The notes beneath the pieces are model-generated. The model did no database searches and was not told the DNA's origin. It saw only the letters and a program-made list of their open reading frames with translations. Positions 7,612 to 25,328 of a stretch of 64,000 nt of DNA are shown piece by piece. Made by a program: the position numbers and the translations under genes. Numbering within the stretch: position 1 is the stretch's first letter; each line of letters opens with the position of its first letter. Source of the DNA: Albimonas pacifica (GTDB taxonomy: Bacteria > Pseudomonadota > Alphaproteobacteria > Rhodobacterales > Rhodobacteraceae); the NCBI RefSeq assembly GCF_900113695.1, contig NZ_FOQH01000006.1, positions 248,001 to 312,000 on the forward strand. The letters are read 5' to 3'.

Positions 7612-7653
7612 ATAACCTGAAGGTCGCAGGTTCAAATCCTGCCCCCGCAACCA
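7609..7653 (+). other. attL core: 3' fragment of initiator tRNA-Met (CAU)
   Basis: From the anticodon loop (CTCATAACC) to the CCA end (CCCCCGCAACCA), these 45 bases match the 3' part of an alphaproteobacterial initiator tRNA, with T-loop GGTTCAAATCC. There is no matching 5' half upstream: the preceding bases are the chromosomal repeat. The fragment is therefore not a functional tRNA gene; it is the attachment sequence carried by the element. It is followed by the usual tRNA-style terminator at 7683. Confidence 0.85.
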
Positions 7654-7682
7654 AAATCCCCAAAGAATACAGCCGCTTAAGA

Positions 7683-7705
7683 GCCTCCCAAACGGGAGGC
7701 TTTTT
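7683..7705 (+). terminator. rho-independent terminator after the tRNA fragment
   Basis: The stem GCCTCCC/GGGAGGC has a four-base loop and is followed by TTTTT. This is the arrangement expected behind a tRNA gene, so the element appears to carry both the 3' end and the terminator that restore a tRNA gene on normal integration. Confidence 0.85.
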
Positions 7706-7719
7706 GCGTTCCGCGCCCG

Positions 7720-7762
7720 TGTCAACACTGTGTCAACAAAACCCCGACGCCCCGTGTCAACG
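7720..7762. repeat. left arm-type repeats TGTCAACA
   Basis: Direct copies of TGTCAACA lie at 7720-7727 and 7731-7738, with TGTCAACG at 7755-7762. The first two are 11 bases apart, exactly as in the pair next to the integrase gene at the other end (25159-25177). Repeats shared by both ends near the core are typical arm-type integrase binding sites. Confidence 0.6.
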
Positions 7763-7816
7763 AATGGCGCCGACCGGGAGCCTGCCAATCTCCGCGAGTC
7801 GGCGCCGACATCAGGA

Positions 7817-23177: not shown

Positions 23178-23855
23178 TTACGCAGTCCTTAGACGAACTG
23201 CGCGCCAAGAGTCGCGAAGGTTGTTCTCGATGGTCTTGGTGGTGGGACAATCCCGCCGCGGATAGGTCTCGCGATACCATGCCTGCAGCGCCCGTGCTTC
23301 GGCGGCGAGACTGTCAGCGATCTCGCCAGCCTCTGCGCGGCGCTGAAACTCGTAGCCGATGATGTCCCGTCCCTTGGTCGGGCAGCCCGGCATGCCGGTG
23401 CGCGTGATTTCTTCGGCTTCGGGCGGCAGGATGTGGATGTCGTGCACGATGTTCGCGCCGACGCTCGCCTCGCCCTTCCGGACATTGGTGATGCGCAGCT
23501 GCCGCCACGCGGGCGCAGGGATCGCGTGCCAGGGGCCGAAGGGCGGATCTTCCTGACCGAACGCGGTCAGCTCGCCCGCCTCCAGCTTCGCCTTCATCGC
23601 GGCGAGCATGCCGTTCCAGACGCGGTGCAGATCGGCCCGCGCCGAGCGCGTCCGGTTGGCGGCCTCGTAGGAGGCGTTCGCGGCCTCCCATTCCCGCACC
23701 GACATGCTGAGGTAGCTCGGCCGCTTCGGCGCATTCTTGCGGGCCTCCGTCGCGCGGGCATGTTCCTCCCACATCTCGGCGGGCAGGTATTCCTTCATCG
23801 CGTCGGACAGCGGGATGGCGTCGGGCGGTGGCCCGTAGGGCTTCTGGTCGGTCAT
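23178..23855 (-). CDS. unknown protein coupled to the integrase, 225 residues
   Basis: I do not recognise this family. The start (ATG at 23855) overlaps the integrase stop as ATGA, so the two are co-translated. The sequence is charged and helix-rich with aromatic residues (MSVREWEAANASYEAANRTR, ADLHRVWNGMLAAMKAKLEA), a proline-rich GPWHAIPAPAWRQL turn and a C-terminal WRAVRLRTA. No membrane segment or catalytic motif is visible. Position after the integrase suggests a recombination directionality or element-maintenance role, but that is inference. Confidence 0.7.
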   Translation of the reverse strand: MTDQKPYGPPPDAIPLSDAMKEYLPAEMWEEHARATEARKNAPKRPSYLSMSVREWEAANASYEAANRTRSARADLHRVWNGMLAAMKAKLEAGELTAFGQEDPPFGPWHAIPAPAWRQLRITNVRKGEASVGANIVHDIHILPPEAEEITRTGMPGCPTKGRDIIGYEFQRRAEAGEIADSLAAEARALQAWYRETYPRRDCPTTKTIENNLRDSWRAVRLRTA

Positions 23856-25144
23856 TTCTGCTCTGCCTCGTTTGCGCTGAACTCCTCTGGCGAGCGCTGC
23901 AACACGAAGGCGCCCACCGTCTCGGCGGCCTTGCGCAGCGGATCGTCGAACAGATGGGCATATCGCTGGGTGGTCTGGACCTGCGTATGGCCGAGCATCT
24001 GGCCGATCAAGGGCAGCGATGCCCCCGCCGACACGAGGATGCTGGCGAAGGAATGGCGGATGTCGTGGATTCGGACATTCGGCTTGAACTCGGTCTTGGG
24101 CTCGCCCTTGCGGTCGAGGACCGGCTTGCCCTTCGCGTCCAGAACCGGCACCTCCGCGCCGAGCCCCGCCCGGCGGCAGACCGAGACCCATGTGCGCTTG
24201 ATCTCGGTGAGCGGTTTGCCGGTCGGGCCGGGGAAGACATAGGGGCTGGGCGGGACGCCCTCGGCCTCCGCCTTCGCCTTGGCGGCGGCTTTCATCTCGA
24301 CCAGCAGCTGCACGGCCGGGCCCGAGAGCGGGACGCGGTGCAGCTTGCGCTGCTTGGTGTGCGCCGAGGGCTTGGTCCAGACGCCGTTCTCGAGGTCGAA
24401 CATCTCCCATGTCGCGCCCAGCACCTCGCCGCGCCGCGCGCCGGTCAGCATCAGGAGCTTGATCGCGTTCGCGGACATGGGCTCCGAATGGTCGTTCAGC
24501 GCCTGCGCCAGCGCCGCGATCTCGGTGCGGTTAAGATAGCGGTTCCGCTTTTCCTCCTGATTGCGGCGCACGCCCGAGGCGGGATTGTCGTCGCGCCATT
24601 TCCAGCGGATCGCGAGGTTGAACGCCTTGCGCAGCACCTCGACGGTGCGGTTGGCGCGGACGGGCGTGCCGCGGATCTCGGTGATGTCGCGGTGGAGCGC
24701 GTCCACATCGTCATGGGTGATCTGCGCGACCTTCATCTTGCCGAAGCGCGGCAGGATGATCTTCTCCCACATCATGCGCTCGTCGGCCTGACTGCGCTCG
24801 GCCTTCTTGGGCAGGTGCTCGCGGGCGTAGCGCTCCCACATCTCCTGCACCGTCGGCGCCTCGCGCTGCGCCTGCCGCTCGCCCATCGGATCGTGCCCGA
24901 GATCGACCTCGCGCTTCATGTCCTTCGCGGTCTGGCGCGCGGCGGCCACGGTCCAGTCGGGCCAGGCGCCAATGGTGATCCGGCGCTGCCGCCCCTCCGC
25001 GCGGTAGTCCAGGACGAAGGACTTGGCCCCGCCCGGCGTCACCCGCAGGGCGAACCCCTTCACCTCCGCGTCCCACAGCATGCTCTGCCCGCGCACCGGC
25101 GGCAGGGCCTTCCGGGCGGCGGCTTCGGTCAGTTTCTCCGGCAT
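23852..25144 (-). CDS. tyrosine-type site-specific integrase (DUF4102-type N-terminus)
   Basis: A 430-residue integrase of the P4 type. The N-terminus (WDAEVKGFALRVTPGGAKSF) is the arm-binding DUF4102 domain, residues about 100-200 form the core-binding SAM-like domain, and the catalytic domain carries TGARRGE (Arg), HDIRHSFAS (His-x-x-Arg), LGHTQVQTTQRYAH (His and the nucleophile Tyr). I chose the ATG at 25144 because AGGAG lies seven bases upstream; an in-frame ATG at 25159 falls inside the arm-type repeat and has no ribosome site. Such integrases commonly use the 3' end of tRNA genes, which fits the tRNA-fMet fragment at attL. Confidence 0.93.
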   Translation of the reverse strand: MPEKLTEAAARKALPPVRGQSMLWDAEVKGFALRVTPGGAKSFVLDYRAEGRQRRITIGAWPDWTVAAARQTAKDMKREVDLGHDPMGERQAQREAPTVQEMWERYAREHLPKKAERSQADERMMWEKIILPRFGKMKVAQITHDDVDALHRDITEIRGTPVRANRTVEVLRKAFNLAIRWKWRDDNPASGVRRNQEEKRNRYLNRTEIAALAQALNDHSEPMSANAIKLLMLTGARRGEVLGATWEMFDLENGVWTKPSAHTKQRKLHRVPLSGPAVQLLVEMKAAAKAKAEAEGVPPSPYVFPGPTGKPLTEIKRTWVSVCRRAGLGAEVPVLDAKGKPVLDRKGEPKTEFKPNVRIHDIRHSFASILVSAGASLPLIGQMLGHTQVQTTQRYAHLFDDPLRKAAETVGAFVLQRSPEEFSANEAEQK

Positions 25145-25158
25145 CTCGGCGCTCCTCA

Positions 25159-25286
25159 TGTCAACACTGTGTCAACACATCATATGGCTGTTTTTGTCGT
25201 TGGCTGGCGGCGAGTAACAGGCGGTCGCGCCGGATAGCTTCGAAAAAACAGTGCTCTAGGAGACTACGCCGGAAAATGCGTCAACA
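25159..25286. repeat. right arm-type repeats TGTCAACA
   Basis: TGTCAACA occurs at 25159-25166 and 25170-25177, with GTCAACA again at 25280-25286, between the integrase start and the right core. Pair spacing (11 bases) equals that at the left end. Because the pair covers the region just upstream of the integrase start, the integrase may repress its own expression by binding there. Confidence 0.6.
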
Positions 25287-25315
25287 ATCAAGGCTCTAGA
25301 TATTGTGGTGAATCT

Positions 25316-25328
25316 GGCTCCTGACCTG
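25316..25328. other. attR core junction
   Basis: GGCTC from the element (matching the anticodon-stem sequence GGCTCATAACC of initiator tRNA) is followed by CTGACCTG of the chromosomal repeat. The element core CTCATAACCTG and the chromosomal core CTCCTGACCTG agree at 9 of 11 positions. The crossover must fall at or just after CTC. Confidence 0.75.

Follow-up and report, generated by a model that had tools for sequence, protein, structure and literature searches.

The 64,000-nucleotide window analyzed here (Albimonas pacifica contig NZ_FOQH01000006.1, positions 248,001 to 312,000) contains on its minus strand an element of ~17.7 kb (window positions 7609 to 25320), which we interpret, with a probability of roughly 0.85, as a chromosomal satellite that builds its own HK97-type head, packages itself, and takes its tail from a helper siphophage. 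It belongs to a widespread tail-less family that most likely works like the capsid-forming phage-inducible chromosomal islands (cf-PICIs). Direct support comes from the gene content, the lack of a recognizable tail, the conserved gene order, the att repeats of the relatives, a constraint on size, purifying selection, the spread over host orders, and a statistical link to one type of tail; from these we infer excision, capsid formation, a cos site, tail theft, and the identity of the helper. Under this reading, the integrase and excisionase would excise the element and the primase-helicase would replicate it. TerS and a TerL of the lambda gpA type would then recognize a satellite-specific site upstream of terS, and a small head made of portal, fused protease and major capsid protein (MCP), and cement protein would be filled with the ~17-kb genome. 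The gpW-like adaptor would close the portal and form the surface on which a coresident siphophage's neck and tail could dock, this phage being most likely of the type of the prophage on contig C64 of the same genome. The particle would carry the element and its restriction-modification (R-M) genes into new hosts, with integration preferentially in tRNA-fMet.

Head and packaging genes without a recognizable tail module

We scanned the open reading frames (ORFs) of the element, taken from a list covering window positions 1 to 32000, against Pfam, PHROGs, and PADLOC. All frames are open, and together they encode an integrase, four small regulators or unknowns, a primase-helicase, TerS, TerL, a three-gene R-M cassette, a portal, a protease-MCP fusion, a gpW-like protein, a DUF2190 cement protein, and a P-loop GTPase. 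An earlier note, made from the sequence alone, had described a complete set of head and packaging genes, and the family matches (E values in brackets; all genes on the minus strand) bear this out, if weakly for gpW: terS (18802 to 19311; phrog_57, 1.8e-31); terL of the lambda gpA type, with the gpA ATPase and nuclease domains (17004 to 18815; PF20454, 4.7e-100; PF05876, 3.5e-91; phrog_15, 1.1e-252); a portal of the lambda family (12590 to 14002; Phage_portal_2, PF05136, 1.2e-101); the protease-MCP fusion (10786 to 12687; phrog_4523, 3.9e-231; Phage_capsid_4, 1.4e-54; Peptidase_S78, 4.1e-5); and the DUF2190 head decoration (cement) protein (10231 to 10575; PF09956, 4.3e-28; phrog_122, 5.1e-30). 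The gpW-like head-tail adaptor is a small ORF 3' of the MCP gene (10577 to 10786; Pfam gpW, 0.055) whose cluster occurs in 116 of 158 loci. A profile of 49 such sequences has lambda gpW (1hyw; E = 0.0087) as its best PDB match, and the predicted model is helix-strand-strand-helix with a predicted local distance difference test score of 77. Docking of a helper tail would take place at this protein.

Tail, lysis, and baseplate families are absent from the Pfam and PHROGs matches of the element ORFs, in agreement with what the note had seen. To extend the comparison, we assembled relatives by a TerL search of viral contigs (80 loci, the top-ranking among 600 or more candidates) and an MCP search of genome contigs (77 loci). 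All locus ORFs were compared by phmmer (E ≤ 1e-5) with a set of 52 proteins of the tail and neck, drawn from six sources: the phages RcKemmy, Shewanella 1/44, S1, and LPPA33, and two tailed prophages of the A. pacifica genome itself (for LPPA33 and these prophages the roles were assigned from position and length, and for J of the C64 prophage by Pfam). Only 2 of 157 loci gave tail matches (L157, one and weak; L159, two), as did L218 alone among 18 further loci. The same tail-less synteny, which the note had proposed to look for by TerL and capsid searches, thus recurs: the head module without a tail match is found in 139 scored rows, 121 of them distinct by sequence. Broken satellite head genes stand beside tail fragments of C64-type phages in L159 and L218, which are, on sequence evidence, traces of recombination between a satellite and a tailed phage. 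One candidate tailed relative, L158, was rejected, as its scanned downstream genes match regulators and Mu-like transposition genes and not tails.

The ends of the relatives point the same way. A complete tRNA-fMet closes the capsid-side end no more than 2019 bp behind the head genes in 57 rows (~49 distinct), leaving no room for a tail module. More than 3.5 kb follows the MCP gene in 27 loci, 18 of which are without a full tRNA gene; the tRNA half-core nevertheless lies behind the head genes in 13 of these 18 (11 within 2.1 kb, one at 2951 bp, and one at 6920 bp), several of them with another integrase next, as in tandem insertion, and 5 of the 18 have neither tRNA gene nor half-core. Tandem insertions, with a half-core behind one satellite and then another integrase, are seen in L063, L010, L114, and L115. 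Tail families were likewise missing from the 25 families listed out of 399, 90, and 135 matching ones in three scans of cargo and neighboring proteins, one of which found portal, head, and terminase families of other phages in the DNA next to some loci.

Compared with 13 relatives, the ratio of nonsynonymous to synonymous substitution (dN/dS), computed on stop-to-stop frames slightly longer than the genes, is 0.07 to 0.30 for terL, portal, and MCP, 0.10 to 0.34 for terS, and 0.18 to 0.61 for cement (gpW, whose frame extends into the capsid gene, was left out). The head genes are under purifying selection. About 70 bases upstream of terS (19316 to 19386, minus strand), where, over runs of alignment columns, 90% or more of 94 sequences agree with the window, would be a candidate cos or packaging site of the satellite's own; its predicted folding is nothing unusual (z = 0.40). 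A packaging site held in common with tailed prophages was tried and rejected: in a crude test on 12 tailed loci, the best word matches 5' of terS exceeded one shuffled copy by at most 3 bases.

Gene order, tailed relatives, and a second tail-less lineage

Where the sequence suffices, the recurrent order is integrase, regulators, primase, terS, terL, slot 1, portal, MCP, gpW, cement, and slot 2, the two slots holding cargo; integrase, regulators, and primase are swapped between subgroups of relatives. The distance from terL to portal, available for 110 loci, is 1.6 to 7.7 kb in 109 and 81 bp in L157. Two loci, L057 and L059, are permuted, with cement followed by o74 and terS-terL; L057 has an integrase between terL and portal, and no fMet core was found in them.

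The position of gpW separates tailed from tail-less loci. Scoring required a gpW call and a portal, which removed 27 and 19 loci, respectively. In the loci scored, gpW precedes the portal in all 16 loci with at least four tail genes and in both loci with two (L255 and L262), i.e., 18/18 tailed loci, and follows the MCP gene in 139/139 rows without tail matches (the 121 distinct ones comprise 94 of the window lineage and 27 others). One of the 139, L063, also contains part of a neighboring copy; L157 and L218, with their stray tail matches, also have gpW after MCP. Published records agree: gpW/Ad1 lies between terL and portal in RcKemmy, RcOceanus, Shewanella 1/44, and Vibrio 1.055, and also in S1, where one gene precedes it. 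In a quick-search MCP tree of 80 rows the window lineage forms its own clade (100 in the Shimodaira-Hasegawa-like approximate likelihood ratio test), 18 of 22 rows labeled as tailed form a separate clade (99; the label of L157 is uncertain, as it rests on one weak match), and a second tail-less group falls in three places.

The A. pacifica genome itself holds several related elements. The tailed prophage on C64 shares 37.5% MCP and 44% TerL identity with the window element, and another tailed prophage lies at the start of C41. A second tail-less element (C35:157591-168721) has gpW, MCP, portal, cement, terL, and terS, with cement before portal, MCP and TerL identities of 57% and 62.5%, and an integrase that adjoins tRNA-Gln. 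Sorted by alignment coverage ahead of the tail search, 40 further regions of the same order were retrieved; 21 of them (L229 to L248 and L252) have no tail match, and an integrase or tRNA gene stands behind the head genes in 19 of the 21, the tRNA genes concerned being of many kinds. Tail matches occur in every one of the remaining 19 regions, in some of them with only one or two proteins. At C37:1-2780, an integrase 52% identical to that of the window adjoins a tRNA-fMet 3' half and is cut by the contig edge; to judge by this arrangement, the locus is a further element at an fMet site.

A 73-aa protein is common to many satellites, where it lies by the att site, and to C64-type prophages, where it lies near terS (C64:32028-32252). 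Of 49 loci that end in a tRNA gene, 24 match it, and it also occurs in Roseobacter phages (~43%), so no argument for a helper can be drawn from it.

Ends and size of the element

Many relatives end in a complete tRNA-fMet on the capsid side. Both ends were compared in 16: six, of which two are one and the same, have in common a perfect direct repeat of 45 to 47 bp that spans the tRNA-fMet from anticodon loop to CCA, seven of the other 10 share exact pieces of it of 15 to 20 bp, and three show none of 15 bp. Elements bounded by the core at both ends (n = 13; 15 bases with at most one mismatch on the integrase side) measure 15.7 to 18.1 kb, with a mean of 17184 bp and a standard deviation (SD) of 578 bp.

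The lengths of slot 1 (2.2 to 6.4 kb) and slot 2 (0.2 to 2.0 kb) are anticorrelated (n = 36 after removal of the broken L141 and seven double fetches; Pearson, -0.66; Spearman, -0.56), and their sum has an SD of 710 bp against 1147 bp expected under independence, a value as low being reached in 0 of 20000 permutations, uncorrected for kinship of the loci. Such a trade-off is what packaging into a fixed capsid predicts, and the anticorrelated slots would serve as a genomic ruler of capsid capacity.

Cargo slots

Slot 1 lies between terL and portal and slot 2 follows the cement gene; the G+C content of the two cargo blocks is 0.56 to 0.60 compared to ~0.66 to 0.72 in the backbone. In the window, slot 1 encodes, on the minus strand, a BsuBI/PstI-type restriction endonuclease (14112 to 15050; PF06616, 8.4e-62; PF17728, 1.9e-43; PADLOC REase_II, 2e-115), an Eco57I-type DNA methyltransferase (15043 to 16698; PF07669, 9.8e-14; PADLOC MTase_II, 2.7e-100), and, adjoining the latter, a 71-aa ribbon-helix-helix protein (16695 to 16910; RHH_1, 3.2e-10) that by its position is probably a regulator of the R-M genes. 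Slot 2 encodes a P-loop GTPase-like protein of 730 to 781 aa, depending on an uncertain start (7817 to 10162, minus strand), whose matches to Dynamin_N (8.5e-4) and MMR_HSR1 (1.3e-3) are both under the curated cutoff (PADLOC mad8, 7.9e-4; LeoA, 0.01).

Across the relatives, slot 1 mostly holds R-M genes. The motif [NSD]PP[YFW], which we take to mark amino-methyltransferases, occurs in ORFs of 56 of 82 distinct slot-1 sequences; the control regions have it in 0 of 40 cases for the primase and in 3 of 97 for portal-MCP. The G+C content of slot 1 is below that of terL plus portal in 82/82. The cargo scan took in 81 of 95 slot-1 representatives of at least 60 aa (101 clusters) and three window proteins, with far relatives and L085 set aside. 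For these 84 proteins, the 25 most matched PADLOC families (of 399) are nearly all R-M methyltransferases. Pfam names for seven cargo proteins are type ISP, N4/N6 methylase, ResIII, XamI, Eco57I, MmeI, and type I M/S; two slot-2 proteins and the 73-aa end protein have no Pfam match.

Hosts and candidate helper

The 64 genome loci of the window lineage come from 49 Rhodobacterales, 7 Rhodospirillales, 3 Hyphomicrobiales, 3 hosts without an order, and 2 under other names, the last being contigs labeled Oceanobacillus (L129) and Halothiobacillus (L142) that are probably mislabeled or misbinned. On a closed Paracoccus plasmid, tRNA-fMet cores spaced at 16.9 kb enclose a copy (TerL, 95.8%), and the record of this plasmid names an integrase, a toprim protein, terminase, methyltransferases, an HNH endonuclease (in the cargo slot), portal, a prohead protease/MCP fusion, and DUF2190. 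Our literature search, covering titles and the beginnings of abstracts in part of the literature, found no description of capsid-forming satellites in Rhodobacterales.

Among 390 genomes of the order, 97 carry a C64-type major tail protein and 27 the satellite lineage (hand-picked among the matches listed by an MCP match of at least 86% identity, some of them short fragments). The tail protein is present in 22 of the 27 satellite genomes versus 75 of the 363 others (odds ratio, 16.9; Fisher P = 1.9e-10), and a contractile-sheath control shows no link (4/27 versus 30/363; P = 0.28). Mu transposase was also tried as a control and was uninformative (3 of 390 genomes). These counts point to, without proving, a C64-type siphophage as the helper type, and the co-occurrence of tail genes thereby names a type that can be tested.

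Weighing of the satellite reading

Several observations weigh against the reading as a tail-borrowing satellite. (i) Tails were sought by homology only. (ii) The match to gpW is weak: the Pfam hit is under the curated cutoff, and the top Foldseek match of the model, the lambda portal-adaptor, is not significant (E = 0.27). (iii) The family scans found no second head-tail connector among the element ORFs, and a helper would hence need to supply more than a tail. (iv) The window copy has no complete tRNA-fMet at its end, making its own mobility less certain than that of its relatives. Its capsid-side att core (7609 to 7653, plus strand) is a tRNA-fMet 3' half, from anticodon loop to CCA, that matches the tRNA-Met genes on C17 (100% over 42 bp) and C26 (98% over 46 bp), with foreign DNA replacing the 5' half; the integrase-side junction (25313 to 25328, plus strand) is host DNA that, aligned by eye, only partly resembles the core, and holds no tRNA half as long as is usual. 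This may stem from integration at a secondary site, from the loss of a neighboring element, or from a misjoin in the contig. (v) The C64-type tail gene is missing in 5 of the 27 satellite genomes, its link is weaker at the genus level (16/21 versus 50/119; P = 0.004), and the C41-type portal also co-occurs (6/27 versus 18/363; odds ratio, 5.5; P = 0.0035), so that the co-occurrence may in part reflect prophage-rich genomes. The contigs of several prophages with the C41-type portal also bear the C64-type tail gene.

This second siphophage marker is one reason to consider that tails come from a host gene transfer agent (GTA) or from many lambdoid phages and not specifically from the C64 type. 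GTAs are common in Rhodobacterales, to which most hosts belong, and a second J-like tail locus lies on C36 of the same genome, which we take as possibly a GTA. Among the markers compared (C64-type tail, C41-type portal, and contractile sheath), the strongest link is nonetheless that to the C64-type tail, and we regard a GTA or lambdoid phages at large as an improbable source of tails.

Less probable still is a fixed, nonmoving defense island, i.e., an old element kept by its hosts for its R-M genes. Most slots do hold R-M cargo, and mobilization is something that we only infer. A fixed island fits poorly with MCPs of different genera being as much as 97% identical, with a spread of the 64 genome loci over 28 genus names (two probably mislabeled) and at least three orders, with tandem stacking at the att site, or with the purifying selection on the head genes.

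That the element is the remnant of a tailed prophage whose tail was deleted is very unlikely: homologous head modules do occur in tailed phages (MCP, 37.5% in C64 and up to ~40% in phage records) and tail fragments in L218 and L159, but the intact frames with low dN/dS, an identical tail-less order in the many distinct rows of a separate MCP clade, the tRNA-fMet close behind the head genes, and a gpW placed elsewhere than in every tailed relative scored all speak against decay, as the earlier note had argued from the intact genes. The interval 10120 to 10231, where that note had allowed for a deletion scar if the relatives were always tailed, shows no scar; it marks the edge of the cargo and contains an inverted repeat resembling a terminator. 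Behind cement the relatives have unrelated cargo or the tRNA-fMet att site.

Other features of the element and its flanks

Integration and replication genes, also anticipated from the sequence, are encoded on the minus strand by a tyrosine integrase (23852 to 25159; Phage_integrase, 8e-24; Arm-DNA-bind_3, 5.4e-19) and a primase-helicase-like protein with Toprim and DUF5906 domains (19650 to 22103; phrog_2249, 6.6e-109; Toprim_3, 6.7e-15; DUF5906, 1e-10). Between them, on the same strand, lie a conserved 225-aa protein (23178 to 23855; no family above the cutoff; cluster in 15 of 158 loci), an excisionase- or regulator-like protein (22781 to 23062; phrog_66, 3.8e-6), a conserved 74-aa protein (22560 to 22784; phrog_18541, 1.9e-18; cluster in 76 of 158 loci), and a conserved 155-aa protein (22100 to 22567; no family match; cluster in 19 of 158 loci). 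Between the cement gene and the GTPase gene, the two 25-nt arms of the inverted repeat (10123 to 10147 and 10183 to 10207) are 92% complementary. The host genes that flank the element encode an enoyl-CoA hydratase family protein on its left; on its right they encode a class I tRNA synthetase and a class V aminotransferase. Host intergenic DNA with G+C-rich repeat units flanks the element on both sides (7347 to 7619 and 25313 to 25482), and one such unit, resembling the tRNA core, may be a secondary att site.

Comparison with known systems

According to excerpts of PMC10690885, cf-PICIs depend on helper tails and have a defined gene list, with an HNH endonuclease among the packaging genes; excerpts of PMC11389934 divide their capsids into three clades. 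The window element resembles the description in the former in having its own MCP, protease, portal, TerL, and TerS and no tail genes. As for the head-tail connectors, also on that list, the scans found one gpW-like adaptor with weak matches and no second connector. A helper required only for tails, as shown for cf-PICIs, would be expected here as well. The earlier designation as cf-PICI-like stands as to the probable mode of action and not as to strict membership, since no HNH family was found among the scanned element ORFs and the head module is of the lambda gpA/gpW type. An HNH protein is perhaps dispensable where a gpA-type TerL has a nuclease domain of its own. Compared by description and not by sequence, further differences from cf-PICIs are the gpA-type terminase, the lambda-family portal, the protease fused to MCP, the DUF2190 cement, the gpW behind MCP, the cargo slot between terL and portal, and the mostly alphaproteobacterial hosts.

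The Streptomyces satellites MulchRoom and MiniFlayer also have capsid and packaging genes of their own but differ, again by description, in their virulent helpers and direct terminal repeats, and have no significant homology to PICIs (excerpts of PMC10690885). Other satellite-like elements with defense genes in tRNA sites are reported in the consulted part of PMC12458937. P4-like satellites share the integrase and primase-helicase with the element, which differs from them by its own MCP and portal. To our knowledge, P4 itself encodes neither a capsid protein nor a large terminase subunit. Complete siphophage prophages have the tail module that neither the family scans nor the tail-protein search found in the element. 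The C64 prophage has homologous terS, terL, gpW, portal, protease-MCP fusion, and cement genes, and RcKemmy and RcOceanus share 38 to 39% MCP identity; all three differ from the element in their neck, tail tube, tape measure, and tip genes, in a gpW between terL and portal, and in having no cargo slot.

We lean, with distinctly less assurance than for the satellite reading itself, toward seeing these elements as an independent alphaproteobacterial class of tail-less self-packaging satellites, apart from cf-PICIs and with at least two lineages. This class would have arisen from a lambda-type gpA/gpW head module when gpW shifted to a place after the MCP gene and the terminase and portal genes came to enclose a permanent cargo slot, and would act as an R-M vehicle tied to one type of siphophage tail. 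If so, theft of the tail alone could arise from a head module other than the one listed for cf-PICIs, R-M systems would have a widespread route among Rhodobacterales and their kin, and the point in the neck where a borrowed tail can join would be defined by a head that has a single adaptor and lacks a second connector.

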